The notes beneath the pieces were generated by a model, which saw only the letters and a program-made list of their open reading frames with translations, did no database searches and was not told the origin of the DNA. Positions 14,464 to 62,897 of a stretch of 64,000 nucleotides of DNA are shown piece after piece; positions within the stretch are counted from its first letter, which is position 1; each line of letters opens with the position of its first letter. Source of the DNA: Haloferax marisrubri (lineage in GTDB: Archaea; Halobacteriota; Halobacteria; Halobacteriales; Haloferacaceae); contig NZ_LOPW02000016.1 in assembly GCF_001469875.2 (NCBI RefSeq), positions 1 through 64,000 of the forward strand. Reading direction: 5' to 3'. A program made the translations under genes and the position numbers.

Positions 14464-14464
14464 T

Positions 14465-15292: not shown

Positions 15293-15294
15293 CA

Positions 15295-20823: not shown

Positions 20824-20849
20824 CCAACATCCCACACACATTGCCACCG

Positions 20850-29252: not shown

Positions 29253-30950
29253 CTATTGCTTGTGGCGAAGTTCAGACACTAGGGCGTCCTCAAGTGCCTC
29301 ACGCATGAATTCGGGAGTAGAAATCCCGTGCACTTCAGATAGTCTTTCAACAGCATCGTGGTAGCTCTGCGGGACACGTACAGTCAAATCTACTTGTTTT
29401 GCTTCATCCACGTGATACTGAAGAGCAGCGCTAAAGAATTGGCCTCGACTCTCATAAGCCGAAGAAACCTCAACTACAGAGTCAATCATCGAAAGTAGAT
29501 TCGCTGGTAGTGAAACCTCAACCTCAGTTGTAGCGATTGGTGCCTGCGGGGTACATTTGACACCGTCAATCGTGTTCTTAAGAAGCGATCGGACAGCTTC
29601 ACCGAAAGCATCGTTTGTCCCATCATCTGTGTTAGCAAGGTAGAACGCAAGAGAATCAACCCGAACTTGGACACATTCATAATCAGTTTCTTCACTGGAA
29701 CTGCCGATGACGACCGAACTGGTACCCACCGCTTGTTTCCTCCCCTCGTCTTCCCAATTATCCAGAATCCACGAAAGGGATCTTTTTCGCCACTCTGGCC
29801 AGTTGCGAAGTATCTCAGAACTTGGTATCTCAGTTTCTTCTTTAGTAATACTGTGAGCGTAAATACTCCTCCTGTGAGGCTTCACATCGAATGTGACAAT
29901 GTCACCAACGTCAATACCGCCGCCCTCCACGTCATCCTCTGAATATGTGAAAGCACGACCTGAATGCGATCTAATTCTGCCGTACCCCTTGTTGCTTAAC
30001 GAGAGTACAACACCTAGAGACCGCTCATACTCTCCTGGATCTATTCCACCCAAGTCATTAAGAGACTCAACGCGCGTTTCGTCTTTCGGATTGAGGTTTG
30101 CAGTCGGGTTCGACGTGATCTTCTTTGGACTAGCACTCGGCCTCGTAATCAAGTGATGAAAGTAGTACAGTATATCTGGTCCAACTATCAGGAACTCGTC
30201 AATCTGCTCTCTCGAGAACGTGTCACCCGCTGTATGCCATTCTACCCCGTCGGGTCCCATTGTGATTGACTGAGAGTGGCTAGTTCCAGGCTGGATTTCG
30301 AAGAACAGCTCGGCGTTGGTACTCACCTTGTTAACAGTCCGGAAATCATGGACTGTCCACGCAATACCATCAGTATCGAACGAATACGTAGGGACTCCTT
30401 GTGAGCTCACCCGAAAGCGCTGCACAATAATCGGGTGTTCAGTCGAATGATGAGCAATTGATTTCAGGATACCATCTGGGTTATCTGCCCTCGCAATACG
30501 ATTTAATGTTGCTTCATACTCGTCATCGGACGGACTCCACCTTTTGATGAACGACCGCTTCGAAGCGTCAATACGACCTACAATCGTGGTTTTCTCATCT
30601 GGACTTGTCGACAATTTCTCTTTTTTCAGCTCGGAAGCGGTAGGTGTGTGCTGGTTTAGAAACTCTTTGAGCCGTCGCTTCATTTCGAGTGTCAGCTTCT
30701 CCGAGGAGAGCGTGGCTTCGGGGTCAATATCTTCTGTGTTCACTTCTGTACCAGACTTGTTAGTGTAGGCATGACCGATGTCACAAAGAGGCTTGAGAAA
30801 CTGCCACGAAATTTGGTCGTCTTCACGGAGCCCAAGATCGGAAAGCAACCCTTCAGCCTCCGGACTCAACTGAAGTGTAACGTAGCTTCCGTTGATACTT
30901 GATCTGATATAATATCCCTTCTCATTTCTATACTCCTTGACAGTAGGCAT
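29253..30950 (-). CDS. 565-aa protein: CSD/S1-like domain plus triple RHH-like tail
   Basis: Uncharacterised. The N-terminal ~290 residues have no recognised domain. Residues ~315-375 (GVVLSLSNKGYGRIRSHSGR, then an acidic DDVEGG, then DIVTFDV) resemble the five-strand OB fold of cold-shock or S1 domains that bind single-stranded nucleic acid. The last ~140 residues form three units of a beta strand plus two helices: VQVRVDSLAFYLANT, VEVSLPANLLSMIDSVVE and LTVRVPQSYHDAVERLS, each followed by a helix ending in AL or VR. That is a ribbon-helix-helix-like pattern shared with three other proteins in this window. ATG at 30950 is preferred to TTG at 30971 because an AT-rich TATA-like element sits at ~30972-30985. 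The local DNA is more AT-rich than blocks 1 and 2 elsewhere. Confidence 0.65.
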   Translation of the reverse strand: MPTVKEYRNEKGYYIRSSINGSYVTLQLSPEAEGLLSDLGLREDDQISWQFLKPLCDIGHAYTNKSGTEVNTEDIDPEATLSSEKLTLEMKRRLKEFLNQHTPTASELKKEKLSTSPDEKTTIVGRIDASKRSFIKRWSPSDDEYEATLNRIARADNPDGILKSIAHHSTEHPIIVQRFRVSSQGVPTYSFDTDGIAWTVHDFRTVNKVSTNAELFFEIQPGTSHSQSITMGPDGVEWHTAGDTFSREQIDEFLIVGPDILYYFHHLITRPSASPKKITSNPTANLNPKDETRVESLNDLGGIDPGEYERSLGVVLSLSNKGYGRIRSHSGRAFTYSEDDVEGGGIDVGDIVTFDVKPHRRSIYAHSITKEETEIPSSEILRNWPEWRKRSLSWILDNWEDEGRKQAVGTSSVVIGSSSEETDYECVQVRVDSLAFYLANTDDGTNDAFGEAVRSLLKNTIDGVKCTPQAPIATTEVEVSLPANLLSMIDSVVEVSSAYESRGQFFSAALQYHVDEAKQVDLTVRVPQSYHDAVERLSEVHGISTPEFMREALEDALVSELRHKQ

Positions 30951-31077
30951 ACTATCCGAAATTTCACGCAACGTAATATTTTTTCGGAGTTCGAGGAGGA
31001 GAACCCAGGCGAGGATTTAGTGATGCGCCCCTCTCACTCCCTAGTTCGTGTGAACCCTGCTTAGGGAGGATGTAATC

Positions 31078-31302
31078 TCAATCGAGTCTAACCGGACTAT
31101 CAGGATTCAACCTAACCGCTGGTATCCGAACTTCACACCCCATCGTTTCCGGAGAAACGAAGTCAGAGAACAGATGATACACCACTAGATTTGATTCAAG
31201 CTCGAAATCGTCGTTGAAAAGACACGCAACACACCCCATTTTCCGAGGTTGTGGGCTATTGGTTCTGAATCTGGGAGTGAAACCTATTGGTACGGTGAGC
31301 AA
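31078..31302 (-). CDS. Doubtful small ORF (74 aa, TTG start)
   Basis: An open frame with a TTG start or an internal ATG (giving 53 aa, MGCVACLFNDDFELESN...). A TATA-like ATATAAAAAT stretch on the minus strand lies 10-25 nt upstream. It has no recognisable family. The CVAC and later MGC could bind metal, but two cysteines are too few to say. The region is AT-rich. A 7-bp inverted repeat (CTCCCTA...TAGGGAG, 31037-31068) follows and may be a terminator. Coding status is uncertain. Confidence 0.3.
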   Translation of the reverse strand: MLTVPIGFTPRFRTNSPQPRKMGCVACLFNDDFELESNLVVYHLFSDFVSPETMGCEVRIPAVRLNPDSPVRLD

Positions 31303-31348
31303 TCTAATTATTTTTATATTGCATATGTTACCCCCCGTTAGTTATGGA

Positions 31349-32503: not shown

Positions 32504-32513
32504 GTTGGGTTAC

Positions 32514-40553: not shown

Positions 40554-40555
40554 CG

Positions 40556-44275: not shown

Positions 44276-44422
44276 ACCCCGAGAATACCTGCCGTTGTCG
44301 AACCGAGATACACTCTCAGTTCTACTCTCCGAAAAGGATTGTAGTGTTCGAATGTCGTAAAAATATGATTAGAGGAGTGAGATTGTGCAATACTTAATAT
44401 CGTTGCACGCTGGTGTGTGACT

Positions 44423-46114
44423 ATGATTGATTCCTCGACGACGGCGGAAGACTTCATCGCCGATGCCGAGTACCACAATCCGTGGTGGAGCGGCACTGGT
44501 GGACTCGAGAAGCTCCGATTCGTCTCAGAGTGGAAAGAACGATCAGATCTCCATCGGTTACTCGACAGTCTCGAGACTGCACACGACGATGGTGTTGGCA
44601 GTCTCGTCCACGCAATGTATGGGCAGACAGGAATCGGAAAATCCACTATGCTCCGACAACTCGTCGCCGCGCTCGTCGACGACGATGCCGTGTCTTACGC
44701 TCCTGGAGACCGCGAGCGCTCACTGGTCGGGTCTGTCGCACCTCGGCAAATCCTCTACATCCCGCTGGAGGAGTCGCTTTACCACCTCGAACCACCAGAG
44801 GTCGCGTTCAACCGACTCCAGAGTGTTGTCGATTACTTCGACTCCCACGTTGCCCCACGACGTGGAACAAAGTTCGTCATCTTAGACGATATCGGGGCAC
44901 TCTCTTTTGGTGAAGACGACGGCCCAGATCGACTGCAGGAACTCGTCGACGACAGAACCTACCTCTTCATCACCGGTATCGTCAGCCCCCAGGTCGACGT
45001 CAACACGGACTCGTGGAAAGACACGGTCGACCAGGTGTCCGGATCGTTCCCCATGTTACCTACGAAGTTCATTGACGCGGTCAAACAAGGCCACGTCGTC
45101 GACTTCGACGACGAGCACGCGCGGAAGCTGGCCGAAACGCTCGAACATCATCAGGTTGAGGGACTCATTCATCGTGCGCGCAAGGAGGAACTGAGCAGTC
45201 GGAACATTGCAGGGATGGTGGACGCACTCTCGACGCTATTTTTCGACGAACTCGACACCGTCGACCACGATACCCTTCACGAGGCTGCGAGGGCGTATCT
45301 TCGACGAGGAGGATCGTTCCACTCAGTGGAGGGTGATACTGTTCGGAATGACCTCGTCAAGTCGCATTTCCTCTTGTATCTCTACAAGGAACTCGCGCGG
45401 TACCACAGTGTCCAACGCCCCGAGAACCTCCATCGGTTGGGTTCGCTCGCTGCGAGTAAAGCCGGAGAAGAACTCAAATATACAACGCTGAGCGAGCAAC
45501 TCGGCGTCGATAGACGGACCGTCGATTCGTACCTCTCAGTCCTCGAAGGTGGGTTGGCTGTCGGCCAGTCGCACGACTTCGCACTGCAGCGATATCGACG
45601 GACTCGACTGTATCTCCGCGACCCCCGACACGTTGTACTCCTCTCTCAGCGTAGGGAGCATCATGGATTCGAAACGTACACAGATGCTGGCGTGCTGAAC
45701 GCCGAGTTCGAACACGCTCTCGCCCGGACGGTCGGATTCGATCACGCGAAGCGACTCGCATGGTCACTCCCCGGAGAGAGTGACCAACGGTTATCGGTCG
45801 AGTACGCTGAGACAGGGAGTGGAACAGTAGACTACGTCCTCCACGGTGACGGTCTCGTGCTCCCGTTCGTTCTCTCGTATCAACCATTCGCTGACGGTAC
45901 CCTATCGACCGCCCTCGAGTTCGACCCGACGACAGGAGCTCACTTCGACGAGTCTGGAGAGGAACTTCGAGAGTTAAGCTACGAGGCACCGTATCGGTTT
46001 GTTGTGACCGATGCGCTCCCCAGAGAAGTGGAGCAGTCTTCCTCGTTGGTCGTCGACCACAGCGGTACGAAGGTTTGTTACCTCCCGTACTGGTTGTTCC
46101 TGTTACTCGCCTAA
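44423..46114 (+). CDS. P-loop ATPase with DUF4143-like C-terminus
   Basis: 563 aa from ATG 44423; a TATA-like CTTAATAT about 25 nt upstream supports this start over the GTG at 44417. Walker A is GQTGIGKSTM (about 70-79), and a Walker B-like KFVILDDIGALSF lies near 152-164. Residues ~340-400 (YTTLSEQLGVDRRTVDSYL, VLEGGLAVGQ, then RRTRLYLRDPR) are the wHTH plus nuclease-like fold start typical of DUF4143 ATPases. Partners of such ATPases are often unknown. It has its own promoter but the same orientation as block 2's helicase/AddAB operon. Role: possibly a switch or sensor for the system. Confidence 0.72.
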   Translation: MIDSSTTAEDFIADAEYHNPWWSGTGGLEKLRFVSEWKERSDLHRLLDSLETAHDDGVGSLVHAMYGQTGIGKSTMLRQLVAALVDDDAVSYAPGDRERSLVGSVAPRQILYIPLEESLYHLEPPEVAFNRLQSVVDYFDSHVAPRRGTKFVILDDIGALSFGEDDGPDRLQELVDDRTYLFITGIVSPQVDVNTDSWKDTVDQVSGSFPMLPTKFIDAVKQGHVVDFDDEHARKLAETLEHHQVEGLIHRARKEELSSRNIAGMVDALSTLFFDELDTVDHDTLHEAARAYLRRGGSFHSVEGDTVRNDLVKSHFLLYLYKELARYHSVQRPENLHRLGSLAASKAGEELKYTTLSEQLGVDRRTVDSYLSVLEGGLAVGQSHDFALQRYRRTRLYLRDPRHVVLLSQRREHHGFETYTDAGVLNAEFEHALARTVGFDHAKRLAWSLPGESDQRLSVEYAETGSGTVDYVLHGDGLVLPFVLSYQPFADGTLSTALEFDPTTGAHFDESGEELRELSYEAPYRFVVTDALPREVEQSSSLVVDHSGTKVCYLPYWLFLLLA

Positions 46115-46288
46115 GAACGGCGACTTCTAGCGATTTTTCTGTTGTTTTCGCGCTTTTAGCGGTTCTAGTCGTTCAGCCACAGGACCCACCAATTGGGACC
46201 ATTACAAGCACCAAAAACTAATTTAGGCACATTAGGTTGTAGTTACAGACAGATTTATATTCTTGGATAAACAACTGATAAGTGCAAT

Positions 46289-48424
46289 ATGGGGATTAGG
46301 GACAACCGGAAGTCGGAAGTTTTGGATGTCACAGCTGAAGGGGAATACACGTGGGACGAGGCGGTGGAGGGCGAACAGATCTCGGAGGGAACGAGGGTCA
46401 CTCTCACTGGCGAGTTCGTGACGCAGCACACAACACGGAACGCTAGCGTAGTTGCAAGCCGGATCTCGATCCGAATTGACGAGGACACGCTCGTCGACGT
46501 GATGCTCACTCCCTGTGACTTCGAAGAGCGGTTTGACCTCGTGACAGGAGCCCAGTACACGGTTACGGGGAAAGTAGCAACCTCACCGACGGCCTTGCCG
46601 CGCCACGAGTCCTCGTGTCCGGACTGTGGCGGAGCCCTCCGACAGCGAGGTGTAGTCGACAGCACAGAAGGCCTCGCGACCGCAGTCACCTCACTGAACG
46701 TCGGCGACCACTTCGTCGTGTGTGACGAGATTCACCGGGTCGCTCGGGATCTGAACGAGAAAACCGACGATTGGATACCGAGGGAACGACAGAGCAGACC
46801 GATTCCAAGCGGTCGATATCTGTGCGTCGACTGTGGGTCCGACGTTTCAGACTACGACCTCACACGAGAACACGGTGGCGAACCCATGCTGGAGATGGAT
46901 GCGTGTGCTGCACCAGCCAGCGAGTCACTCGGACTCTCAGTCGGTGGTTCTCGTGACGCCACGAACTTCCGTGAGAACATCCACGAGGGCTACGTTCCCC
47001 AACCTGACGCCCTCGCGTACGAAGGGTTGTTCTACGACTACCGGTTCCCCACAACTGAATCCGAGCACACGGAAGATGCTCTGTTCACACCGACCTTCGA
47101 ACGTGCCTCTGCACGAAACCCCGTGACCGGGGAACGAGAGGTGTACCTCTCGGTGGGACTCGATTCGTCGCTCAGTTCTTCTGAGTTCGAACGGCCACCC
47201 CTCGATGTCGTCGCTGTCCTCGACACCTCCGGCTCGATGTCGTCACCGTTCGACGAGTACTACTACGACTCTACAGGGACTCGCCGAGAAGTCGAAGACG
47301 AAGAGAAGAGTAACGACACCAAGATGGAGGCCGCAGCGGCGTCGTTGTGTGCCCTCACGGAGCAACTTGCTCCCGACGACCAGCTAGGTGTCGTGCTATT
47401 CGACAGTCGTGCCCACGTCGCGAAACCGCTTCGAGACGTCCAGTCGACCGACATGGACGCCATCCGAGGCCACATTCGTGATGTTCGTGCGGGTGGTGGA
47501 ACGAACATGGGCGAGGGGTTCGACGCCGCCCACCAGATGCTCGCAGAAATGGAACCTGACCGAGAGCAGCGTATCGTCTTCATGACCGATGCGATGCCGA
47601 ATACGGGTACGACACGGTCGAACCAACTCGTCGACCTAGTTGCCGATGCAGCGAGCGAGGGAACACACACCACGTTCGTCGGCATGGGCCTCGACGAAAA
47701 CGCCGAGTTGGCAAGTGACCTCTCTGCAGTCCGCGGAGCGAATCACTACTTCGTCCACTCCGCTTCTGAGTTCGAGCGGCGGCTGGGAGAAGAGTTCGAC
47801 TACATGGTCTCCCCGCTCGTCTTCGACCTCTCGTTGTCGGTCGACACCGAGGGCTACGAAGTCGACGGCGCCTACGGGGTTCCGAACGCGGATATCGAGG
47901 ACGGCAGGGTGCTGGACGTCACCACTCTCTTCCCTTCGCCGACGAGCAATGGTGAATCTCGCGGAGGTGTCATCCTCGTACGGTTGCACCGAACCAATAG
48001 CGAAGAACCGAGCGTCGAACTCGACCTCTCGTGGGACGAAGGTGAAGGTGTCACACGGGGGACCCGTGTCGCCGTCGACGTCCCGAGCGGGAAACACTTC
48101 GACGGCTCTGGAATCCGAAAGGCCGTGGTCTTGAGTCGATACGGACGGGTCCTCCGTGAATGGGCGTCGTGGGCACGGTCTGTGTCAGCTGCTGACCAAA
48201 CAGGGATTGTCGACGACTGGGTCGGTGCGCGAACGACTCGGAACGAACACGAACGTGGCTCGGTACCGATACGAATCTCCAACTCCTACGCTGCGGTCTT
48301 CCGCGACCTTCGTGCACACATCGTCTCCGAGTCCACAGAAATCGACGACGAGACACTCAGCCGTGAAGTCGAGGTTCTCGATAGTCTACTCGCACACACC
48401 GAAGAGGAGAGGCGGTCGCAATGA
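46289..48424 (+). CDS. VWA-domain protein with N-terminal OB-like and zinc-ribbon region
   Basis: 711 aa. The N-terminus looks like an OB fold (about 25-105: TRVTLTGEFVTQHT ... TVTGKVATSPTA). It is followed by CPDCGGALRQRG (about 110-121) and CVDCGSD (about 179-185), which together could bind zinc. The VWA domain has an intact MIDAS: DTSGS (312-316), a GGTNMGEGF loop Thr (~402) and FMTDAMP Asp (~432). VWA proteins are metal-dependent adaptors, often paired with ATPases in conflict systems. A TATA-like TTTATATT lies ~30 nt upstream. It overlaps the beta-CASP nuclease gene by 4 nt. The role is likely assembly or target tagging, which is inferred. Confidence 0.8.
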   Translation: MGIRDNRKSEVLDVTAEGEYTWDEAVEGEQISEGTRVTLTGEFVTQHTTRNASVVASRISIRIDEDTLVDVMLTPCDFEERFDLVTGAQYTVTGKVATSPTALPRHESSCPDCGGALRQRGVVDSTEGLATAVTSLNVGDHFVVCDEIHRVARDLNEKTDDWIPRERQSRPIPSGRYLCVDCGSDVSDYDLTREHGGEPMLEMDACAAPASESLGLSVGGSRDATNFRENIHEGYVPQPDALAYEGLFYDYRFPTTESEHTEDALFTPTFERASARNPVTGEREVYLSVGLDSSLSSSEFERPPLDVVAVLDTSGSMSSPFDEYYYDSTGTRREVEDEEKSNDTKMEAAAASLCALTEQLAPDDQLGVVLFDSRAHVAKPLRDVQSTDMDAIRGHIRDVRAGGGTNMGEGFDAAHQMLAEMEPDREQRIVFMTDAMPNTGTTRSNQLVDLVADAASEGTHTTFVGMGLDENAELASDLSAVRGANHYFVHSASEFERRLGEEFDYMVSPLVFDLSLSVDTEGYEVDGAYGVPNADIEDGRVLDVTTLFPSPTSNGESRGGVILVRLHRTNSEEPSVELDLSWDEGEGVTRGTRVAVDVPSGKHFDGSGIRKAVVLSRYGRVLREWASWARSVSAADQTGIVDDWVGARTTRNEHERGSVPIRISNSYAAVFRDLRAHIVSESTEIDDETLSREVEVLDSLLAHTEEERRSQ

Positions 48425-50703: not shown

Positions 50704-50731
50704 CCACGGATAAGCCAACTCTCCAACGACC

Positions 50732-51937: not shown

Positions 51938-51955
51938 GCCAGGACCCCCGGGTGG

Positions 51956-54841
51956 CTATCCGAATAGGTCTTCGTAATCGTCAGGGTCGCTCACGAGACT
52001 TCCCTCTCCGTCGTTCTCTTTGTACTTCCACGAACTCGGTTCGTCGACGACACCTGCGAAGATTGGGTTGCCATCTTCGTACGCGATTGCGTGGTGTGCT
52101 TCGTTGACTGTCACAGCACCGCCTCCTTTGAGTTCATAGACGAACTCGGCAACCTTCCGAACCGAGTCTGTCGTGATGAACTTCCGTCCATCACTAGCCT
52201 TTTCGAACGGAGACCCTTCGTGGTCGACACTGAACTGGTATCCGTCACGTGGGCCGGGATATGGCTCGCCCACCTCGAGTTCATCTTCGCTTGGGACCGG
52301 CTGGGATTCACGGGCTTCTGGGAGTTCGTCAATCGACGCTTCGCGAAGTTCACCCGCCAAAGTGCCATCGCCGGGCACCCACGTCTGGTGAGTCACCTCT
52401 GCACTCGCGAGATCCTCTTCCCAGTCGTGCTCGTAGAAGATGTTCTCGTCGACTGTGTCACGCGCATAGAGAACGTGAAGCTCTGAACGCCCCGCAGACT
52501 TTCCGGTACGGAGTACACGACCGAGCGTTTGGATTCGCTGTCGAACGCTTCCTGAAGAAACACGGACGATTCCGACGTCTGCACTCGGAACGTCCACTCC
52601 CTCGACAAGTGCTTTCACACTGAGCATGACGTTCGCGAACCCGTCGTCACCGAACCAGTCGATAGCGAGGTCGTTCCAGAGGGGATTTCGATGCCCCGAA
52701 TGGTACATCACCGGACGGTATTCGCTGGACAGGAAGAGTTCCTCCAGTCCTTTGTCGACCTGTTTCAGTTGTGGATACTGTTCGTACAGTTCGGCGCGAC
52801 CAGTTTTCGGCCCCGAGATTCGACCAGTCCTGACGTTTCGCCCACGCCCCTCACTCGGCGCGACCATCCGCTCTAACTGCTGAATTCTCTCCTGGAAGAC
52901 GATGGCTTTCTTGTCGTGTTCGATGGTGTCCTGAAGAAGGTGGAGCGTAATCGCCTGTCTCGCCACTGCGTCGGCGATGAGGTCTCGTCGTTCCTGGGTG
53001 TACCTGAAGTAATCGCCGATCGCAGGGGTTGCACCTTCGGTGGAGTTCTGTATCGTCCGAAGCTTCTGGGCGAAGTTGCCATCGAGTTCGTAGAGTCGAT
53101 TCTGATACCGAAGTTCGATATCGTTGACTGCGTCCGAGACCTTTCTCGATAATCGGTCGTATGCCCCACGCTCTGCAGGTGTGAGGTCGAATCCGATGTA
53201 GTTCACACGGAATTCGGGGATGAGATTGCGTGAGATGGCTTCGTCGTACGTCAAGTCATAGTAGACGTCGCCCAGTTCGGAGACGAGCAACGAATCGGAC
53301 GCCGTCCACTCCTCTGGGTCTCGGGACGAGAGCGGTGTCGCAGACAGACCCAGTTGAGCAGTTCGGTGATAATCGAAGACAGACGAGAACACGTTACCGG
53401 TGTATCTGTGACACTCGTCGGCGACGAGGAGGTGTGGTGGGTTGTCGACTCGAGAAAGTGAGATCTCGAGGTAGTCGTCTTTGACGACTGAGTTCACGAT
53501 ACCGACGAGAACTCGGCGGTCATCAGCGAAGTCGTCTTTGTGCCCACCGCCAAGCCATCCGACGTCACTTGGTGGGACGTTGAGCTTCTCGATGAGTTCG
53601 TCGAGCCACTGCCGCATGAGGATGTTCGTTGGGACAAGTACGGTGACGACTCCATCTGGGTTCTCGTCTAGCCACCGCTTGATGATTTCCAATGCCATGA
53701 CCGTCTTCCCTGCACCAGTGACGACACTCGCGATGCCAGAGTGTGATGGGGTGGTCCCATCTCGGAACCACTGGTTTGCCGCCTCTTCTTGCCACTCGTA
53801 GAGTGAGAATTTGTCTGGGAAGCGGTAGTGAGTGCGTCCTTCTGGGGACTTTTGCTCGAGCATGTCCCGTGAGAGCCCTGACCCGGTTCCGTCGAGGATC
53901 GCGCGTACCTCTTCCTCGTCGGTCGCATTCACTAATCGCTCTAAGACCGAAGCAGTGAGCCCAGAGAGATCGTTTCCACCGACCGACTCGAAACGAGACT
54001 TCACTTTTTTCCGGAGTTCGCGCCGGCGGCGCTCTTGGGCGACGTACTTCTCGTCGCGTCGCATTCGAGGCCGGGTCGGGTCGTTCGTTAAGACACCGTC
54101 GTCGAGGTAGTCCTCTCGGAAGGTGTCGAACATCTGTCGGTGCTTCCCAAGTCCTCCGGACTCCCGGTACACGTAGTACTTCGCCAACTCACGTTTTATT
54201 CTGTCATCGGGTGGGTCGACGTCGGAGCCCTCTCGTGCGAGCCATCGCTCGAACTGCCAGAAGATGTCGGCATCTCTGAAACGGTCGGCAAACCGTTCTG
54301 CGAGATCACCTACAACGTAGCCATCGTTTGTCTTACGTGCAGCACCAAGTTCACACAGCAGTACTGGATACCCACGGATGCCCTGTTCGTTGAACTCGTA
54401 ATCGTGGTCGTCTTCTAACCGCGAGCGGAGTGCTCCCCGTGAGAGGGGATTATCCGCGTTGAGTAGGATGCGATTGAGTGCGTGGAGCCCCTCGATTCCC
54501 TCTGGAAAGTTCCCATCGATGGCCCAACTCTGTTTGATCGCATACCACAGGAAAGTCTCGTAATCGATGTCGCCGTCTAACCACCGATCGGCGAACGACC
54601 AAACCGAGATGTTTCCGTCGACCTGCCTGAGTACGCCTAACTGAACGTACGTACTCACGATCCGTTTGAGATACTGTTCAGAGTATTGCCCACCCTCGGG
54701 TTTCAATAACCGCTCCTGTGCGCGTGCGACGAACGAACGCTTGTCTATCGGCTCCGCGGCAGCTATCGAGACGAAGACCCGACAACGCCGGTTCGTATCG
54801 TCGTCCACACCGAACAATGGGGTCGGAAAGCGGCGACTCAT
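51956..54841 (-). CDS. XPB/Rad25-like SF2 helicase
   Basis: 961 aa. The N-terminal ~330 residues contain winged-helix-like parts (SEQYLKRIVSTYVQLGVLR; GALRSRLEDDHDYEFNEQGI). The core is YEWQEEAANQWF (Q region), VVTGAGKTVMALEI (~374-379), VLVPTNILMRQWLDEL (Ia), ADECHRYTG (DECH, ~474), LGLSATP (III), VFQERIQQLERM, EGVDVPSADVGIV (V) and QRIQTLGRVLRTG (VI, ~767). This is the archaeal XPB-like/restriction-type SF2 layout. The last ~130 residues form an unassigned domain. It lies 3 nt after the Trp-module gene, so the two are co-transcribed; that partner may be its regulatory subunit. Confidence 0.85.
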   Translation of the reverse strand: MSRRFPTPLFGVDDDTNRRCRVFVSIAAAEPIDKRSFVARAQERLLKPEGGQYSEQYLKRIVSTYVQLGVLRQVDGNISVWSFADRWLDGDIDYETFLWYAIKQSWAIDGNFPEGIEGLHALNRILLNADNPLSRGALRSRLEDDHDYEFNEQGIRGYPVLLCELGAARKTNDGYVVGDLAERFADRFRDADIFWQFERWLAREGSDVDPPDDRIKRELAKYYVYRESGGLGKHRQMFDTFREDYLDDGVLTNDPTRPRMRRDEKYVAQERRRRELRKKVKSRFESVGGNDLSGLTASVLERLVNATDEEEVRAILDGTGSGLSRDMLEQKSPEGRTHYRFPDKFSLYEWQEEAANQWFRDGTTPSHSGIASVVTGAGKTVMALEIIKRWLDENPDGVVTVLVPTNILMRQWLDELIEKLNVPPSDVGWLGGGHKDDFADDRRVLVGIVNSVVKDDYLEISLSRVDNPPHLLVADECHRYTGNVFSSVFDYHRTAQLGLSATPLSSRDPEEWTASDSLLVSELGDVYYDLTYDEAISRNLIPEFRVNYIGFDLTPAERGAYDRLSRKVSDAVNDIELRYQNRLYELDGNFAQKLRTIQNSTEGATPAIGDYFRYTQERRDLIADAVARQAITLHLLQDTIEHDKKAIVFQERIQQLERMVAPSEGRGRNVRTGRISGPKTGRAELYEQYPQLKQVDKGLEELFLSSEYRPVMYHSGHRNPLWNDLAIDWFGDDGFANVMLSVKALVEGVDVPSADVGIVRVSSGSVRQRIQTLGRVLRTGKSAGRSELHVLYARDTVDENIFYEHDWEEDLASAEVTHQTWVPGDGTLAGELREASIDELPEARESQPVPSEDELEVGEPYPGPRDGYQFSVDHEGSPFEKASDGRKFITTDSVRKVAEFVYELKGGGAVTVNEAHHAIAYEDGNPIFAGVVDEPSSWKYKENDGEGSLVSDPDDYEDLFG

Positions 54842-54844
54842 GGG

Positions 54845-55681
54845 CTACCAGTCTTCAGGATCGTCGGAGTATACGGTGTGGTCCTTGGAATCCGTTTTTG
54901 ATGTGGTACCAAGAGATGCAGCCCAGGATTCGAGCTCCTCACGCTCGTCGACAGAGAGTGAGTCTGTCAGCGATGGTGGCTCGCTAACCTCGAGTGGTGT
55001 CTCTTCGATCTCCCCAATGTAGACGGGGAGCATCTCGACACCACGCTCTTTTCGGAGCTTGATCACGTTTCTGACGACTCGGGGGAGGTCCCCGAACTGA
55101 CTTCGAACTTGCTCGGGAGCAGGATGGGCATTGACTAGTGTGATAACTTCGTTTGAAGGCGTCACGCGGAACGACCCGCCATTTGGTTTGTACGACCGGA
55201 GTGCAGCGAGAATATCTCCAGAAATCTCTGTCTCGACTGGATGACGTTTCCCTGTTTCTGGGTTCTGCCACCAGACTCGTTCACCACCGGCACCGAGAGA
55301 GAATTTCGAGCCATCGTACACACTTGGCCAGAGGTCGCCCATAGAGAGACCAGATGGAGACACATCGAACGCAAACGTCTCTGCGTCTTTTGGCACCAGT
55401 TCACCCTGAAGATCGAGCGTACCCACCCACGTGGTCTTGTACGAATCCCCGTCTTCTTCCTGAGTGAGGACGTCCCCTGATTCTGTGACTCTGACACGAC
55501 CCCCAAGACGCTTGATCTTCAGGAGGTCTTCAACGAGGGATTCGGGCGTTGGGTCAAGGTACAGACGGTCGGTACCTTGGTAGACCTGCCACCAGACGTC
55601 TCCATCTGGGTTCGTGTGGAGTCGAAATCCTCGATAGTATTCTGGCCATTCGTCACCGGGAGAGAGAGTGTGGCTCGTCAT
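54845..55681 (-). CDS. Trp-module protein 1 (two copies of an unnamed ~65-residue module)
   Basis: 278 aa, no known family. Residues ~10-75 and ~110-175 are two copies of one module: an acidic 'PGDEWPEYY/GDLWPSVY' start, a (V)WWQ core strand (GDVWWQVYQ; GERVWWQNPE), a middle 'LVEDLLKIKRLGG' or 'ILAALRSYKPNGG' helix, and an 'RVRVTESGDVLT / FRVTPSNEVIT' hairpin end. A charged C-terminal tail follows. The same module occurs twice in the protein at 62001-62897. It starts the operon that continues with the XPB-like helicase. The repeated beta-rich units suggest a binding (not catalytic) role. Confidence 0.72.
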   Translation of the reverse strand: MTSHTLSPGDEWPEYYRGFRLHTNPDGDVWWQVYQGTDRLYLDPTPESLVEDLLKIKRLGGRVRVTESGDVLTQEEDGDSYKTTWVGTLDLQGELVPKDAETFAFDVSPSGLSMGDLWPSVYDGSKFSLGAGGERVWWQNPETGKRHPVETEISGDILAALRSYKPNGGSFRVTPSNEVITLVNAHPAPEQVRSQFGDLPRVVRNVIKLRKERGVEMLPVYIGEIEETPLEVSEPPSLTDSLSVDEREELESWAASLGTTSKTDSKDHTVYSDDPEDW

Positions 55682-55810
55682 TGATAGTATCGCGTTACTA
55701 TGTCTTCGGTCAGTCGGACATATATATCCACATGGAAATGCACCTGAAATAGAAATTCCGTATTTACGAAGGTTTTATTCTACTGACTGAGAGAGTATCG
55801 CAAAGACACC
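55682..55810. promoter_or_regulatory. Divergent promoter region, Trp-module 1 and Snf2 operons
   Basis: 129-bp AT-rich gap. On the plus strand TTTTATTC (about 55771-55778) sits ~33-40 nt before the Snf2 ATG. On the minus strand the complement of ACATATATATCC (about 55719-55730) lies ~40 nt upstream of the Trp-module 1 start. Either could be a TATA box; nothing more specific is visible. Confidence 0.4.
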
Positions 55811-57595
55811 ATGGGCAAGGGGAATTTGGGCACTTCACCTGACGTAGTGATGGATGTGAACCGGCGACCCGAGATACTCGAACGACTCGGCGAGACCGAC
55901 GTCACAGAGATCGGGGGACTTCCAACGCATCTGACAAATGTCGAAGCACAGCGCTTTGCAGCCGCGCAGGGACAACAGGAACTGCTGTCTCTCAAAGAGA
56001 TCGAGGACAAGATCAAACTCCTCGATCACCAGTTGGACGCAGCTCACAGGGCACTTTTTCAAATGGGTGGAGGTGCGCTCTTTGCAGACGAAGTTGGGTT
56101 AGGGAAGACAATCGAGGTTGGCATGGCGTTGAAAGAGATGGACTTCAGGGAGACGCACAAGACGTTTCTGGTTCTAACACCTGCTCAACTTGCTCCTCAA
56201 TGGCAAGAGGAACTCAGGACCAAATTTGATCTTGAGTTCGTTTGCAACTACGACGAGGAATTTGGGGGATTCGACGACCACGACAAGGTCGTCTCGAGCA
56301 TCGATACGGCGAAGACGAAGAGTCACATCGACGATGTTCTCGAACGGCGCTGGGACGTGCTCGTCCTCGACGAAGCACATTACATAAAGAACGAAGACAC
56401 CAAGCGGTACGAGCTCATCGAAGAGTTGGACTACGGACACGCCTATTTTGCGACAGCAACACCAATCCAGAACGACATCACGGACCTGTACAACATCGTC
56501 CGTCTCATCCGACCGGGTCTCCTCGGGAGTAGAGAAGAGTTCCGCCGAAAATTCGTTCCCAAGAACGACGATGCGCAGGTCAAGAACGGTTCAGAGCTTC
56601 AACGTCGCCTGAACCGAGTCATGATCCGCAACCGCCGTGAGGAGACGGACATAGACTTCACGAACCGTCGAGTGCAGACGAATACGTTCGAGCCCACACG
56701 CGACGAACGCGACGTGTACGACGCAGTGACGGACTATGTCCGTCAAAATTACACGAGCGAGGGGGCGAAGCACCTCGTCATGCTCATGCTACAGAAAGAA
56801 GCCGTGAGCAGTCCCTATGCCGTCCTCGGGACGATCGAAAAGTGGCTGAACGACCCTGAGAGGTCGGCCCCAGCAGAGCGCGAACAACTCTACGAGATCG
56901 AGACGCTGATAGATGGACTCGGTCAGACGACAAAACAGAAGAAGCTTGCAAACGTCGTCGAGGGCCTCGAAGAGAATCTGAACACAACCCGTGCAGTCGT
57001 GTTCACACAGTTTAGGCCAACGCAAGACGCGATTGCAGACTACATCTCTGGGCGTGGACACCCGGTCCACGTGGTCAATGGAGACGTCTCCAGTAAGGGG
57101 AAGCAACGAGCAATCGACAAATTCGAAGACGAAGGCGGCGTGATGGTCGCGACCGACTCGATCAGCGAAGGGCAGAATATGCAGTTCTGTAACGTCCTCG
57201 TGAACTACGATCTACCCTGGAACCCGATGAAGGTCGAACAGCGAATCGGACGTGTGGACCGCATCGGCCAAAACAAGGACGTCTACGTGTTCAACCTCGC
57301 TCTCGAAGGGACTGTCGAAGAACACGTCCTCGACAAACTCTACGGGAAGATCGACTTATTCAATCAGTCTATTGGAGGATTGCGGGACGTCCTCTCTCGG
57401 ATGGAAAAATCGGGTGCAGACTTCGAGCGGGAAGTCTTCGATAGGTTGCGGACCGCAGACGACGAAGTCGAACTCGAGAACAACTTCGAAGAGATGGCGG
57501 TCGACCTCGAGAAGAACAAAGAGGCTGCCGAGAAGATGGCAGACTTCAACAAGGACGTGTTCGGAACCTTCGAGTTCACTGGAGGGACAGCGTGA
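55811..57595 (+). CDS. Snf2-family helicase/translocase, short (RapA/DrmD-like core)
   Basis: 594 aa with a complete Snf2 core: HQLDAAHRALFQM (Q), DEVGLGKTIE (about 93-102), LTPAQLAPQWQEEL (Ia), DEAHYIKN (about 187-194), ATATPIQND (III), VVFTQFRPTQDAI (IV), SEGQNMQFCNVLVNYDLPWNP and QRIGRVDRIGQ (about 477-487, VI). It ends soon after the core with a helical region (LEGTVEEHVLDKLYGKIDLF; LENNFEEMAVDLEKNKE). Full RapA/DrmD-type proteins continue for 300-400 residues past this point; here the protein stops and its continuation appears to be encoded by the next gene, which overlaps it by 4 nt. It should translocate on dsDNA. Confidence 0.87.
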   Translation: MGKGNLGTSPDVVMDVNRRPEILERLGETDVTEIGGLPTHLTNVEAQRFAAAQGQQELLSLKEIEDKIKLLDHQLDAAHRALFQMGGGALFADEVGLGKTIEVGMALKEMDFRETHKTFLVLTPAQLAPQWQEELRTKFDLEFVCNYDEEFGGFDDHDKVVSSIDTAKTKSHIDDVLERRWDVLVLDEAHYIKNEDTKRYELIEELDYGHAYFATATPIQNDITDLYNIVRLIRPGLLGSREEFRRKFVPKNDDAQVKNGSELQRRLNRVMIRNRREETDIDFTNRRVQTNTFEPTRDERDVYDAVTDYVRQNYTSEGAKHLVMLMLQKEAVSSPYAVLGTIEKWLNDPERSAPAEREQLYEIETLIDGLGQTTKQKKLANVVEGLEENLNTTRAVVFTQFRPTQDAIADYISGRGHPVHVVNGDVSSKGKQRAIDKFEDEGGVMVATDSISEGQNMQFCNVLVNYDLPWNPMKVEQRIGRVDRIGQNKDVYVFNLALEGTVEEHVLDKLYGKIDLFNQSIGGLRDVLSRMEKSGADFEREVFDRLRTADDEVELENNFEEMAVDLEKNKEAAEKMADFNKDVFGTFEFTGGTA

Positions 57596-60500
57596 GTACC
57601 GACGCTCAAGACTCGAAGGACACCCGCGTCCTCAACGTGCTCAACGTCAAGCGGTTCACCGAAGCTGTGATCACGTCCAGGGGAGGAACCGTCGACAGGG
57701 ACGACCCATCACGCTGGGATGTCAAACTCCCCCCAGAGTTGGTCGGCGACCAATTCGATAGGCGGGCCACACTCGTCTTCGACCCTGCCGAGCGACAGAT
57801 CGGCGAAGGAGACGTACTCGCGGCACCAGGAACACCATTTTTCAACACTCTCGTCCAGACCACAAACAGAGGAGAGACGATCGGCAGTGTTCGGTTCAGT
57901 GCAGAATCTGTACAGCTGCAAGTCCCACCGGTTCTGGAAGTGTGCGACCTCGACGTCACGACGAAGTCGTTCGTCCGCGAGCAGACGAAGACAGCACTCG
58001 TATTCCACGTCGCTGCGGAGTTCGAGAGTAAGAGTTCCTTCCAGCAACTGACTCTCGAGACGGTCGTCGTCGACCCCAACACAGGAAAACGCCTGCCGGC
58101 CATCGAAGACCGGTACCTCTCACACTGGAACTCGTTCCTCGGTCAGACGCCCGCACGGGCGGATGTCGATGTCGGCACTGAAACCCTGTATTCCACCTAC
58201 GACGTGGCTCTCGAAACCGTTGAAGAACGGATTCAAGACACGACACAGGAACTCGTTTCCGAAGCAGATTCGGACGTCTCTGAGCGTGCCAAGGAGATTC
58301 GCCGACTCTACAAACAACGTAGAGGTGAACTCGACCAGCGAATCGAAGACAAAAAAGAGGAGATCAGGGAGTGGGAAGACAAGCGCCAGCGTGCTCGAAA
58401 AGACAGCACCAGGAACCGGTACTACCAGAACTATATCTCGGCAAAAGAGGAGCTCGAAGAGATCAAACAGAGCGTCGAAGACCGCAAAGCAGAGCTCAGG
58501 CGAGAAGAACGCAACCGAATCGAGAACGTCCGCGACGAACACGACGTGCAGGTCGACGTCTCACTTGCAGGGTTCACGTATCTCGAGTACGACGTTGGCA
58601 CGCTTCGAATCGAACTAGACGACGGGGACCGGAGCGGGGTCTTGGGTATTGGATACACCCCCGCAAAAGGTGAGTTCGACCCCGTCGAGTGTACGGAGTG
58701 CGGAGTCACGTTTTCGAAAAGTGAGCGTCCACAGCTGTGTGACGACGGCCACGTCGTCTGTGCTGACTGTCTCGAAACCTGTGTGACCTGCGAAACAACA
58801 CTCTGTGGCAACTGTTCGAACGGGTACGGATACGACTCGTGTGGTAGTTGCGGTGCCTTAGAGTGTGCACAGTGTTCCAGCACGTGTACCTCCTGTGGGA
58901 GCAACTCGTGTTCGTATCACAGATCCGAGTGCACGATGTGCGGCGAGACAACCTGTGTACTCTGTGGCGTTGGGTGTTCGACCTGTGGTGAGTTCCACTG
59001 TGACTCGCACCTCGTGGAATGTACTACCGACGGAGAACCACGATGTCTCGCACACGCGGCCATGTGTACCATCTGCGGCGATTACCACGGCGAAGAACAC
59101 GTCGAACCGTGTGGAGAGTGTGGTACGCTCATCTGTCCGGAAGACAGTTCAGATTGTTATACCTGTGGTGAGGTACATTGTTACGACCATCTTGTCCAGT
59201 GTGCAACTGACAGCGAGTGGCGCTGTGCCACACACGTCGACGTTTGCGAAGTTGACGGCGATGACCACGGGATAGAGAATCTCGAAGGCTGTACCAAATG
59301 TGGTGACACGCTTTGTCCAGAAGATCGGGAGACTTGCCTTACGTGTGATTCTATTCGGTGTCACGAACACTGCTCCCCGTGTCCCGCATGTGATGGGCAC
59401 CACTGTACTGAGCACCTCGAAGACTGCACAGTCTGTGAGGTCGGCCATTGCGGTGACCATCTTGAGGGATGTTCTGCATGTGGTGATCTCCTCTGCCCCG
59501 AAGACCGAATCACTTGTCAGGACTGTGGTGACGTCCTCTGTCCGACTCACGCAACTGAGTGCTCACACTCTGGGACACACTATTGTGATGACCACATGGG
59601 AACGTGCAGGCGGTGTGAAGAACCGGTGGGGTCCGAACATCTCATAGCGTGTGCCGATTGCAGTAAACCAGCGTGTCCAGACCACGCTGATTCGTGCACC
59701 GTCTGTGACGATGACTTCTGTGAATCTCACGTCGAAGTCTGCCAGACATGTGAGCTTGGGGTTTGTGAAGACCACTCTGAGACCTGTGTAGTGTGTGAAG
59801 AGGTCACGTGTATCGACGACCTCGAAACGTGCCACACATGCGATCAGAACGTCTGTGAAGGACATTCAGAGACGTGTGCGTCCTGTGAAGAGGTCACGTG
59901 TACCGACGACCTCGAAACGGGCACATACTCCGGTGAGCTGTTCTGTCCAGATGACCGGTCCAAGTGTATCCACTGCGGAGAAATAACTGGATACGTATTC
60001 CTCACGGAGTGCGAAACCTGCACTGAGCTCACGTGCCCATCCCACACCGAAGCCTGCTCTATCTGTGAGGATGACCTCTGTGAATCTCACGTCGAAGTCT
60101 GTCAAACGTGTGAGCAGGGAGTGTGTGAAGTACATTCGAAGACTTGCGACGCGTGCGGAGAAGTCACCTGCACGTCTGATTTAGAAGCGTGTGCCGACTG
60201 TGGAGACCAGCTCTGTCCCGACGACAGGTCGTCATGCGGTCACTGCGGCGAACACTTCTGTACAGATACTGTCACCCAATGTGGGGTTTGTGACGAACCA
60301 CACTGCACAGAACATATCGATCACTGCTCAGTCGGTGAAGAAGCAGTCTGTGTTACTCACATCACGACGTGCGCGGTTTGTGAAGACACCATCTGCGTAG
60401 ACCACGCCGAAGCGTGCGTCGAGTGTGGAGAGGATGTGTCGTACTGTCCGTCTCACCTCGTCGAATGCGGAACGTGTGACGACAAGCTGTGTCGCGATCA

Positions 60501-60969
60501 CCGGAGCCAATGCGACGTTGGTGGGGACGAGTTCTGCCGACGTCACCTGTCGGGCGGTGGCCACGGGGGCGATCTCGTCGCGTGTGACGACCACGTCCAC
60601 ATGTGTGTAGAGTGCAACAAGCCGGTTATCTCGGTGAATGCAGTCGAAGCACCAATCCAGTCGGGATACGTCGCCAAGGAGCACGTAGAGGCGTGCTCTC
60701 TGTGTGAGCAATCGTATGCGCCGGTTTCCCTAGAACAGGGTCGTTGTGAGACCTGTCGAACACTGGGTTCTGCCTCCAAGCAAGCGGTCCCCCAGTCCAT
60801 CCAAGACGACTTCCGAACAGTCAAAGCGAGCACGAATGCACGGTATCTCGTCGTCTACGGGAAGTCACTGTTCGGCGCGAACGAACTCGTCGTGTTAGAT
60901 GATGCCGGGAATGAGGTCAACAGGAGGAAACGTGGGGTCATTCGCCGCATTGTGGAGGTGTTCCGATGA
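57592..60969 (+). CDS. RapA-C-like/coiled-coil protein with ~39-unit Cys/His zinc array
   Basis: 1125 aa from a GTG that overlaps the Snf2 stop (GTGA). Residues 1-190 (SRWDVKLPPELVGDQF; ATLVFDPAERQI; VLAAPGTPFFNTLV) look like the segment that follows the helicase core in RapA/DrmD-type Snf2 proteins. A coiled coil spans ~200-318. From ~367 to ~1056 the protein is a near-perfect tandem array of 15-residue units with consensus CxxCxxxxCxxHxxx; the best units match exactly (CQTCELGVCEDHSET; CTVCDDDFCESHVEV). Every fourth unit in part of the array loses one cysteine. A C-terminal ~70 residues (YLVVYGKSLFGANELVVLDD) closes the protein. It probably binds dozens of metal ions. Function unknown; scaffold, nucleic-acid filament binder or metal sensor are possibilities. 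Not a known named family that I recognise. Confidence 0.85.
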   Translation: MSTDAQDSKDTRVLNVLNVKRFTEAVITSRGGTVDRDDPSRWDVKLPPELVGDQFDRRATLVFDPAERQIGEGDVLAAPGTPFFNTLVQTTNRGETIGSVRFSAESVQLQVPPVLEVCDLDVTTKSFVREQTKTALVFHVAAEFESKSSFQQLTLETVVVDPNTGKRLPAIEDRYLSHWNSFLGQTPARADVDVGTETLYSTYDVALETVEERIQDTTQELVSEADSDVSERAKEIRRLYKQRRGELDQRIEDKKEEIREWEDKRQRARKDSTRNRYYQNYISAKEELEEIKQSVEDRKAELRREERNRIENVRDEHDVQVDVSLAGFTYLEYDVGTLRIELDDGDRSGVLGIGYTPAKGEFDPVECTECGVTFSKSERPQLCDDGHVVCADCLETCVTCETTLCGNCSNGYGYDSCGSCGALECAQCSSTCTSCGSNSCSYHRSECTMCGETTCVLCGVGCSTCGEFHCDSHLVECTTDGEPRCLAHAAMCTICGDYHGEEHVEPCGECGTLICPEDSSDCYTCGEVHCYDHLVQCATDSEWRCATHVDVCEVDGDDHGIENLEGCTKCGDTLCPEDRETCLTCDSIRCHEHCSPCPACDGHHCTEHLEDCTVCEVGHCGDHLEGCSACGDLLCPEDRITCQDCGDVLCPTHATECSHSGTHYCDDHMGTCRRCEEPVGSEHLIACADCSKPACPDHADSCTVCDDDFCESHVEVCQTCELGVCEDHSETCVVCEEVTCIDDLETCHTCDQNVCEGHSETCASCEEVTCTDDLETGTYSGELFCPDDRSKCIHCGEITGYVFLTECETCTELTCPSHTEACSICEDDLCESHVEVCQTCEQGVCEVHSKTCDACGEVTCTSDLEACADCGDQLCPDDRSSCGHCGEHFCTDTVTQCGVCDEPHCTEHIDHCSVGEEAVCVTHITTCAVCEDTICVDHAEACVECGEDVSYCPSHLVECGTCDDKLCRDHRSQCDVGGDEFCRRHLSGGGHGGDLVACDDHVHMCVECNKPVISVNAVEAPIQSGYVAKEHVEACSLCEQSYAPVSLEQGRCETCRTLGSASKQAVPQSIQDDFRTVKASTNARYLVVYGKSLFGANELVVLDDAGNEVNRRKRGVIRRIVEVFR
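58690..60750 (+). repeat. In-gene tandem repeat array: ~39 units of 45 bp (15 codons)
   Basis: The coding repeat inside the preceding gene. Each 45-bp unit encodes C-x2-C-x4-C-x2-(H/D)-x3. Units keep length 15 with almost no indels from about unit 3 to 37, while third positions and the variable residues have diverged; the DNA is not a simple-sequence repeat. Blocks are duplicated at higher order: three adjacent units starting at ~59698 (CTVCDDDFCESHVEV, CQTCELGVCEDHSET, CVVCEEVTCIDDLET) recur 360 bp (8 units) later at ~60058 with few changes. A four-unit (180-bp) period is visible for the variants lacking the second or third Cys. Confidence 0.85.
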
Positions 60970-61931
60970 GCAACAGACACAATCCAGAGTGGTACGATGC
61001 GGGGTCGGTCCGGAAGACAATCGAACGAGCAGTCGACGACTCAGTTCCAGTGTATAAACTGATAGACTTCATCCACAAGAAGGAGTATTCGTCTGTGTCC
61101 GAACGACGGGTGAAGCGACTCGTCGAAGGAACCCTCGAACAACTCGACGAGAAGATCAGTCAGACGGAACTCTCGCAGCCCCGGTCGACGGATTCGTCAC
61201 CCCGCCCGATGGAGAACCGACGTGCAGACGTCGACGACGTCGAATATCTTTCGACGGACGAGTTCGCTCGCGTGTTGGGTGTCGTCCTCCAACGTTTCGA
61301 GGGGAGGACTCGACGGTCTGACGTCCGTGACTCAGCCGTCGACCTCTACTGGAATCGCTCGCACACCACTGTGGGAATCCGTACCGTCTCTGTCGTATCT
61401 GGTTGCTCAGTTTCTGCTCAGGAGGTGCGTCCGATGGTGGACGGCAACACGAAACCCCGGGAGGGGCGAGCACCGTCTGATCTCGTCGTCGTCACGAACG
61501 GCACCTTCGACGCAGATGCTCGAGAGTTAGCTGACGAACACGGAATTTTCCTGTGTAATGGTGACCAGTTGGAGCAGTGGTTCCGGATTGCTGGCGTCTC
61601 TGATAGTCTTCTCGCTGACGTGCTCGAGAGAGGGAAGGAACGCGAGTTCGACATGGACGCTCGTGTCGAAGAAGAACCAAGCATTCCTCCCCAAGTCACG
61701 GACTTTGACGTGATTGAGGAGTTGTCGTCGTCATCAGCTTCACGACCTGAGATCGTGGACGAGGAGCACGAGATCGAACCACCGTCCGAACCTCCGCAAG
61801 GTGGTGCAGATGAGTCTCCGCAAGCAGGAGAGTACGGTCGCCTCGGTGCCGACGAAAGCGAAGATGCAGATGGAGACGTGTTCGGTGACCTTCAGAAAAA
61901 GGTGAATGAACAAACAAATGATTCAAATTGA
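60966..61931 (+). CDS. Degenerate Mrr-like restriction endonuclease-fold protein
   Basis: 321 aa, ATG overlapping the previous stop by 4 nt. The N-terminus is helical/wHTH-like (VRKTIERAVDDSVPVYKLIDFI). The middle (about 85-215) has the Mrr_cat layout: DEFARVLGVVLQRFEG, DSAVDLYWNRSHTTVGIRTV and VVVTNGTFDADARELADEHG, then FLCNGDQLEQWF, which matches the ivTxGxFxxxAxxxA...IxLxDGxxL end of Mrr. The catalytic QxK/ExK pair is replaced by GIRTV, so the cutting site seems lost. The C-terminus is a long acidic tail. It probably keeps DNA binding but not cleavage, or uses different residues. It closes the Snf2 operon. Confidence 0.65.
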   Translation: MSNRHNPEWYDAGSVRKTIERAVDDSVPVYKLIDFIHKKEYSSVSERRVKRLVEGTLEQLDEKISQTELSQPRSTDSSPRPMENRRADVDDVEYLSTDEFARVLGVVLQRFEGRTRRSDVRDSAVDLYWNRSHTTVGIRTVSVVSGCSVSAQEVRPMVDGNTKPREGRAPSDLVVVTNGTFDADARELADEHGIFLCNGDQLEQWFRIAGVSDSLLADVLERGKEREFDMDARVEEEPSIPPQVTDFDVIEELSSSSASRPEIVDEEHEIEPPSEPPQGGADESPQAGEYGRLGADESEDADGDVFGDLQKKVNEQTNDSN

Positions 61932-62000
61932 CAAAGTGCAATTTCCGAACACGTCAGTGAATATGGGAAACGAACCTGATACACATCTCTGGAGGGTCGT

Positions 62001-62897
62001 ATGACCGCGACGTACAGTCGCGAGGAGACCACGGTACCGCTCCCTGGTGGAAGGTCTGTGACCATCGAGCCCGGGCAACCGTGGCCATCGACGCATCGCG
62101 GTTCGCGATACAGTCTCGTGACGAGTGACGAGTTCCCTGAGGGAGCGATCAAGTGGGAGCAACGCGACCTCAATATCCATGCACGACCTCCCGAGGGTCT
62201 TCGGGATGTGCTGCGGAGCTTCGGGAAAAAAGGAGGACATGGGATCGTTCGTATCACGGCAGGAGGTGAGGTTCTGACGAAGATCAGAGCCGACGACTAC
62301 GTGAACGTCGACCAAGCAGTAGTGTCGTCAGGTTGGGTTCCGGTATACGTGGGTAAGCTCACCGGAGAAATCGACTTTGGAGAAGTCGATCTGAACCCTC
62401 CAAGGCAGACCGATTCTGTTCGTATTTGGTCCGGACTGCCGTTTCACCACGGAGAGCGCTGGTCGTTAGCAGAGGATGACGAACTTCACTGGCGGTGGAA
62501 AGATTACGACTTCACCTCAGCGTTCGACCACGACGAATTGGTCGAACGATACCGAACATATCGGCCTACTGGAGGTCGATTGTACATCACTGAACTCGGT
62601 CACGTGTGGGGTAACGTTTCACCGGGTGACCTCTCCGGGGAACGAGCAAGAGATATTCAGAATGCAGTCGATACGTGGGTTACTGAGACCGAACGGCAAG
62701 GAAACACAGCGGCACGTCGCCTGGTTAACCGACGGTTGTTAGTAACGAGTCAAACGGACGACCCGTCTGATGGACTACTCCCAGTTCACCTTGGTCATAT
62801 CTCAGAGTTCGACGGCGGGACGATACCACGCCCAGTCGTCGACGACGAGTCGTATTTCAAAGTCGTTGGCCAGTACGAACAAGTGTGGGAGTCCTGA
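62001..62897 (+). CDS. Trp-module protein 2, paralogue of the 54845-55681 protein
   Basis: 298 aa, no known family. It carries two copies of the same module as Trp-module 1: ~15-100 (GQPWPSTHRGSRY; EGAIKWEQRDL; GIVRITAGGEVLTK) and ~140-215 (GERWSLAEDD; ELHWRWKDYD; LVERYRTYRPTGGRLYITEL, GHVW). The linker and tail are charged. It lies 69 nt after the Mrr-like gene in the same orientation and may be the last gene of that transcript. Having one paralogue coupled to an XPB-like helicase and another next to the Snf2 operon suggests a common docking or recognition role. Confidence 0.7.
   Translation: MTATYSREETTVPLPGGRSVTIEPGQPWPSTHRGSRYSLVTSDEFPEGAIKWEQRDLNIHARPPEGLRDVLRSFGKKGGHGIVRITAGGEVLTKIRADDYVNVDQAVVSSGWVPVYVGKLTGEIDFGEVDLNPPRQTDSVRIWSGLPFHHGERWSLAEDDELHWRWKDYDFTSAFDHDELVERYRTYRPTGGRLYITELGHVWGNVSPGDLSGERARDIQNAVDTWVTETERQGNTAARRLVNRRLLVTSQTDDPSDGLLPVHLGHISEFDGGTIPRPVVDDESYFKVVGQYEQVWES

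Follow-up and report, generated by a model that had tools for sequence, protein, structure and literature searches.

Does a 33-kb block of sixteen neighbouring genes, rich in helicases and nuclease-type domains, encode one defence system, or several that have come to lie side by side? The block stands in the window analysed here, which covers 64 kb from the start of contig C16 (167 kb) in the 3.9-Mb Haloferax marisrubri genome. Given that the window carries a Cdc6/Orc-type gene and a ParA-type gene, and that parts of it match a plasmid of Haloferax lucentense, the replicon is plasmid-like. An earlier note on this DNA had read the genes, numbered P1 to P16, as a single system. Much of its inventory is sound: all 16 long open reading frames are present where it placed them, as are four helicases from distinct groups (P4 and P11 of the SF2/ResIII type, P6 UvrD, P13 SNF2), a VWA protein, a DUF4143 ATPase, a TFIIB-repeat protein, a Cys-rich array and three switches of orientation (at about 33.8-34.0, 51.94-51.96 and 55.68-55.81 kb), and none of the 16 proteins has a methyltransferase match in Pfam, NCBIfam or PADLOC. 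The six or so nuclease-type domains can be recovered too (CoiA-like P2, and P5, P6, P9, P10 and P15), although P15 is without catalytic residues. The block as a whole is nevertheless best explained as a defence island of several separate modules carried by a plasmid-like Haloferax replicon.

The new element among these modules is P11 to P16 (window 51956-62897), a six-gene divergent cassette present at no fewer than 14 haloarchaeal loci. This divergent arrangement of the six genes recurs in Halorientalis, Haloarcula, Halarchaeum, Halobellus, Halorhabdus and further haloarchaeal genomes, from several families; Halopenitus has the same six genes, but all on one strand. P13, P14, P15 and P16 are joined by 4-bp overlaps in most loci, while the genes outside P11 and P16 are not conserved and the flanks are unrelated between loci. 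Pairwise distances of the six proteins are correlated in mirror-tree comparisons (r 0.76-0.97, each p=0.0005), a signal of which shared descent can be part of the cause, with P14 and P15 evolving at roughly double the rate of the other four. P12 was found in 16 of 294 class-level genomes, nine times in the six-gene form and seven times in a three-gene form, and was absent from the 13 other Haloferax genomes listed in that search; one copy of the cassette (G403) looks disrupted. With P12 as the anchor, nothing was found outside Halobacteria in 84,980 species or 295 phylum-level genomes, a search that distant forms could escape, nor in the viral contigs of IMG/VR. P11 to P16 are a conserved, patchily distributed cassette in islands that contain known defence genes; genome neighbourhood maps thus bear out the idea of a conserved, patchy set among defence genes for these six, but not for all sixteen.

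The cassette itself appears to be composite. A Trp-Trp-SF2 helicase module stands alone in seven class-level genomes, an SNF2-zinc array-Mrr module stands alone in six genomes, and an SNF2 gene with a P14 of about 400 residues without array is found in many more. In a Haloquadratum MAG (L184) the two modules follow one another on the same strand, on a contig that ends within P11. Since the modules occur alone elsewhere and in tandem here, the six-gene cassette is best read as a merger. Neighbours of the module relatives, hand-picked by eye and with no background set, include a Pbe/Dnd operon, pAgo, a type I restriction enzyme, a BrxHII and DrmMI-like pair and an OLD-like gene, and in Halobellus rarus (L182) BRIGADE-like genes lie beside the cassette. 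At one locus (L176:9349-13953) an array-less P14/SNF2 pair overlaps the gene for an OLD-like ATPase by 1 bp, which suggests that this ATPase is yet another partner of the split helicase.

Three of the six proteins share a Trp (WGG) module. P11 (51956..54841, minus strand, 961 aa) is an SF2 helicase with an XPB/PbeA-like core and one such module at its C-terminus. Its Walker A motif (TGAGKT), DECH box and motif VI are intact; it matches Pfam ResIII (4.8e-22), its best PDB match is XPBII, and its PADLOC match is confined to the core of PbeA (150 bits). P12 (54845..55681, minus strand, 278 aa) consists of two WGG modules, its halves matching one another in hhalign (98%, E 1.6e-13), and has no match in Pfam, PADLOC or NCBIfam. 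The P11 C-terminus matches both P12 repeats (93.5%, E 2e-7 with the P12 profile, and 91.5%). P16 (62001..62897, plus strand, 298 aa) is a paralogue of P12 (hhalign 98.6%, E 7.6e-16) with a weak internal repeat (23%). Its AF2 model is confident (pLDDT 87.6, pTM 0.87) and found no relative at E<1e-3 in the PDB or among the viral models of BFVD. Weak hmmsearch matches to designed 'Cake' proteins cover about 60 columns only and are not believed.

By homology, P13 and P14 together make up one helicase. P13 (55811..57595, plus strand, 594 aa) is the SNF2 core of a RapA-type BrxHII/DrmD helicase, with matches to PADLOC DrmD (2.6e-75) and BrxH (1.7e-70) and to NCBIfam DrmD (4.6e-74, where 250 of 950 bits puts it under the cut-off), and RapA among its PDB matches. 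P14 (57592..60969, plus strand, 1125 aa) supplies the remainder in residues 1-366: a profile of P14 N-termini aligns with the C-terminal part of full-length BrxHII/DrmD-like proteins (template columns 697-948) at 97% in hhalign (E 1.4e-11), against 0.2% at most for unrelated controls. The AF2 model of P14, of medium confidence (pLDDT 70.7), has two long helices (196-267 and 271-316) between beta strands, a layout already described for the final domain of both BrxHII and RapA (PMC12839542). Clear as the profile comparison is, Foldseek returned no significant structural relative of this N-terminus. On these comparisons P13 and the P14 N-terminus are a split BrxHII/DrmD (RapA-like) helicase.

Residues 367-1052 of P14 are an array of zinc knuckles, built of 15-residue units of the form CxxC-x4-CxxH/D-x4; we infer zinc binding from the CxxC...CxxH spacing. 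Array-bearing orthologues have about 8-37 strict units in 675-1244 residues, and the array-less forms have none. Between the window and the H. lucentense copy, identity is 92-98% in the flanks and over most of the array, yet a stretch of 120 residues (8 units), the third copy of an 8-unit super-repeat, is present in one and absent from the other. Positive selection on the array was rejected, given that dN/dS is 0.15 in the variable stretch, where the high dS of 0.79 fits turnover of units. Recent tandem duplication at the DNA level was likewise rejected, as TRF finds no array repeat and the super-repeat copies are only about 73-80% alike. Gain, loss and reshuffling of units are familiar from TALE, PPR and KRAB-type zinc-finger arrays. 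A more ambitious reading, which we think unlikely, is that the array acts as a modular recognition arm: by adding, dropping and rearranging single 15-residue units and blocks of 8 units, it would give a nuclease-free immune translocase changeable target specificity, and WGG would be a new fold through which the complex is put together.

P15 (60966..61931, plus strand) has the Mrr fold (Pfam Mrr_cat, 27.6 bits) and is the exception among the enzymes of the block, key motifs being intact in P2, P4 to P11 and P13. In the three-gene systems Mrr keeps its E...D...QAK residues in all six cases. In the six-gene systems, by contrast, all 17 copies of P15 have alanine for the glutamate and RTV, KTA, RIV, ALF or similar for QAK, the aspartate being retained in 16. 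By its residues P15 is a pseudo-nuclease, its catalytic E, Q and K having been replaced.

P1 to P10 complete the block. P1 (29253..30971), a cold-shock/OB and RHH protein, P2 (31349..32503), a CoiA-like nuclease, and P3 (32514..33764), a TFIIB-repeat protein with an RHH-like tail, are on the minus strand, and the others on the plus strand. These are P4 (34018..37242), an SF2/ResIII helicase with an RHH-like tail; P5 (37236..40553), an AddB-like nuclease that retains DYKTG and C..C.....C; P6 (40556..44275), an AddA-like UvrD helicase-nuclease (NCBIfam addA, 1.7e-101); P7 (44417..46114), a DUF4143 AAA ATPase resembling PDC-S01; P8 (46289..48424), a VWA protein with the MIDAS motif DTSGSM; P9 (48421..50703), a beta-CASP-type metallo-beta-lactamase with an RHH-like tail; and P10 (50732..51937), an Mrr/DUF2130-like PD-(D/E)XK protein with an intact GD...EAK motif. 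Haloarchaeal genomes were searched with P8, P14, P12, P4 and P9, 15-60 kb around the matches was taken, and all window proteins were mapped onto it; the genomes are a sample rather than an exhaustive set, and some mapped loci may belong to the same species as named ones. At these loci P4 is found singly or in other contexts. P5 and P6 are AddB- and AddA-like with key motifs retained, yet score under NCBIfam cut-offs, and roam as a separate pair; P9 is common and mobile (64/245 genomes). P4-like helicases occur, fused to a further partner, in open frames of about 2,700-3,300 residues in five genomes (G159, G133, G058, G049, G136). P7 and P8 are at the heart of another association that recurs: 18 of 21 full-length VWA genes have a P7-family ATPase within 13 kb, and frequent companions are a HEAT-repeat protein, an ADP-ribosylglycohydrolase, a CARF and PIN pair and AddA. 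This association, exemplified by window 44417-48424 and L047:1865-14561 and with AddAB also among its partners, may represent another undescribed defence or signalling system.

Why, then, does the block look so much like a unit? From 31349 to about 62912 (P2 to P16) the window is colinear with the H. lucentense plasmid pSVX82-3 at 93-97% nucleotide identity, and IS1595-family transposases lie beyond both ends of the shared 31.5-kb unit on that plasmid; the gene tables of the plasmid records are incomplete. P1, with which the block had been thought to begin at 29253, falls outside, as does the BRIGADE-like operon described below. In every gene compared, dN/dS is 0.03-0.30, so all of P2 to P16 appear to have been kept functional, under purifying selection between the two copies. 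On pSVX82-3 an ADP-ribosylglycohydrolase gene follows immediately after P16 (L190:23770-24678). Colinearity at about 95% identity thus indicates that the island moved as one recent unit. It is also an argument that P2 to P16 act together as one 15- or 16-gene system, as are the recurrence of P7-P8-like genes near AddA in some genomes and the presence of P8-, P9- or AddAB-like genes near some cassettes. The sister plasmid, however, is so closely related that it can document recent joint transfer and nothing beyond that: an island moving in one piece, and not proof of one mechanism. All other cassette loci are without P4 to P10 as a set, and P4, P5-P6, P7-P8 and P9 recur elsewhere in differing orders and combinations, usually without P11 to P16. 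Nor are the sub-operons linked by shared modules, as had been claimed: similarity among the RHH-like tails of P1, P3, P4 and P9 is weak (blastp E 0.01-0.3), no such tail was detected in P11 to P16, and the Trp modules are confined to P11, P12 and P16, so no module joins the two halves. As the genes are not kept together across the sampled haloarchaeal genomes, the sixteen-gene system was rejected, and concerted action of P2 to P16 is very improbable.

On balance, P11 to P16 probably form an anti-virus or anti-plasmid system that works as one DNA-bound complex. A restriction-type system is the more serious of two further alternatives, albeit an unlikely one, in which a real nuclease resides in the P11 N-terminus, in the WGG proteins or in a degenerate but still active P15, or is supplied by a neighbour. 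The Mrr fold and almost invariant aspartate of P15, the intact Mrr of its three-gene relatives and the coupling of related BREX and Pbe helicases to nucleases (PMC10853773) all speak for it. Replacement of E, Q and K in every six-gene P15 argues against it, as do the WGG invariants, which are mostly W, G, P and R and form no nuclease motif, and P11, in which Pfam, PADLOC and PDB searches found no nuclease domain; one could still be hidden in the approximately 330 N-terminal residues of P11 or in the WGG fold. Alternatively, the cassette might not serve defence at all. RapA-type proteins also work in transcription recycling, and a non-defence role is therefore possible; the RapA-type architecture of P13-P14 and the several plasmid-borne copies would suit a plasmid device that remodels transcription or chromatin, for silencing or maintenance. 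Defence genes adjoin many of the islands, however, contigs of 2.9-3.2 Mb (G259, G403) carry copies too and distribution within the genus is patchy, all of which make this reading distinctly improbable.

In the preferred reading, that of a DNA-bound immune complex, P13 and P14 would form a RapA/BrxHII-type SNF2 translocase from a split gene, and the expandable array at its C-terminus would probably be the arm that recognises a target, whether DNA or protein. P11 would be a second motor, recruited through the WGG modules that it has in common with P12 and P16, and P15 a former Mrr nuclease retained as a binding or sensing subunit. The complex may sense invading DNA, or proteins of that DNA, through the array. 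Given that the cassette lacks a modification enzyme and any nuclease recognisable as active, foreign DNA would be stopped by tracking, by remodelling or by a BREX-like block to replication or transcription, rather than by encoded cleavage. The implications are several. Haloarchaeal immunity gains a putative system not named in current family libraries, one that combines two motors, a split BrxHII/DrmD helicase unaccompanied by a methyltransferase, an array that differs in length between close relatives and a nuclease catalytically stripped in every merged copy examined. The difference between 17/17 lost and 6/6 kept makes the need of RapA-type immune helicases for DNA cleavage testable. More broadly, a large defence island can resemble one system when a single genome is viewed.

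How does the locus compare with known systems? Just upstream of the block the earlier note had overlooked an operon (9528..28269, plus strand) encoding a DpdH-like protein, two giant 1.8-kaa YprA-type helicases and a PLD/DrmC-like protein. With its two YprA-like helicases, Dpd-like genes and PLD nuclease it resembles BRIGADE as described (PMC12458937); no 7-deazaguanine-derivative biosynthesis cluster was recognised among the upstream window ORFs searched. A Csa3-like regulator (8503-9156) lies just before this operon, and a small ORF at 28512-29063 matches the PARP catalytic domain weakly (E 0.0058). BRIGADE is not part of P11 to P16, which have no YprA helicase. The claim that no named system fits holds for P11 to P16 in PADLOC, NCBIfam and other family libraries, and the open-access literature yielded no named equivalent, subscription papers lying outside that scope, although P13-P14 is a split BrxHII/DrmD helicase. 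Mrr-type (type IV) restriction depends on the E, D and QxK set, of which the six-gene P15 copies have lost E, Q and K. Zorya likewise combines an SNF2 helicase with an Mrr-fold domain (ZorD, Mrr-like), but the cassette has no match to ZorA or ZorB, its Mrr residues are gone and its genes are separate. PbeABCD, the CxC ABC-ATPase/DndE system, has in PbeA the closest likeness to the P11 helicase core, and one three-gene locus adjoins a Pbe/Dnd operon; PbeA, however, is an HKD-helicase, whereas no HKD nuclease was found on P11 and no match to PbeB, PbeC or PbeD in the cassette. The nearest relatives are BREX type 3, through BrxHII, and DISARM class 1, through DrmD. From BREX type 3 the cassette differs in that its six proteins do not match the BrxC ATPase, the BrxXI methyltransferase or PglZ and its flanking genes are not conserved. 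From DISARM class 1 and ARMADA it differs in that the YprA/DrmA helicase and the PglX-like methyltransferase are missing from its operon. The cassette thus stands apart in having no PglX/BrxX-type methyltransferase, no PglZ/BrxC and no DrmA/DrmB/YprA partner. Compared with BrxHII/DrmD, including the BrxHII/RapA-like helicase of ARMADA, it has a split gene and a long zinc-knuckle array, and it is most likely a methyltransferase-free, apparently nuclease-free translocase complex related to BREX and DISARM.
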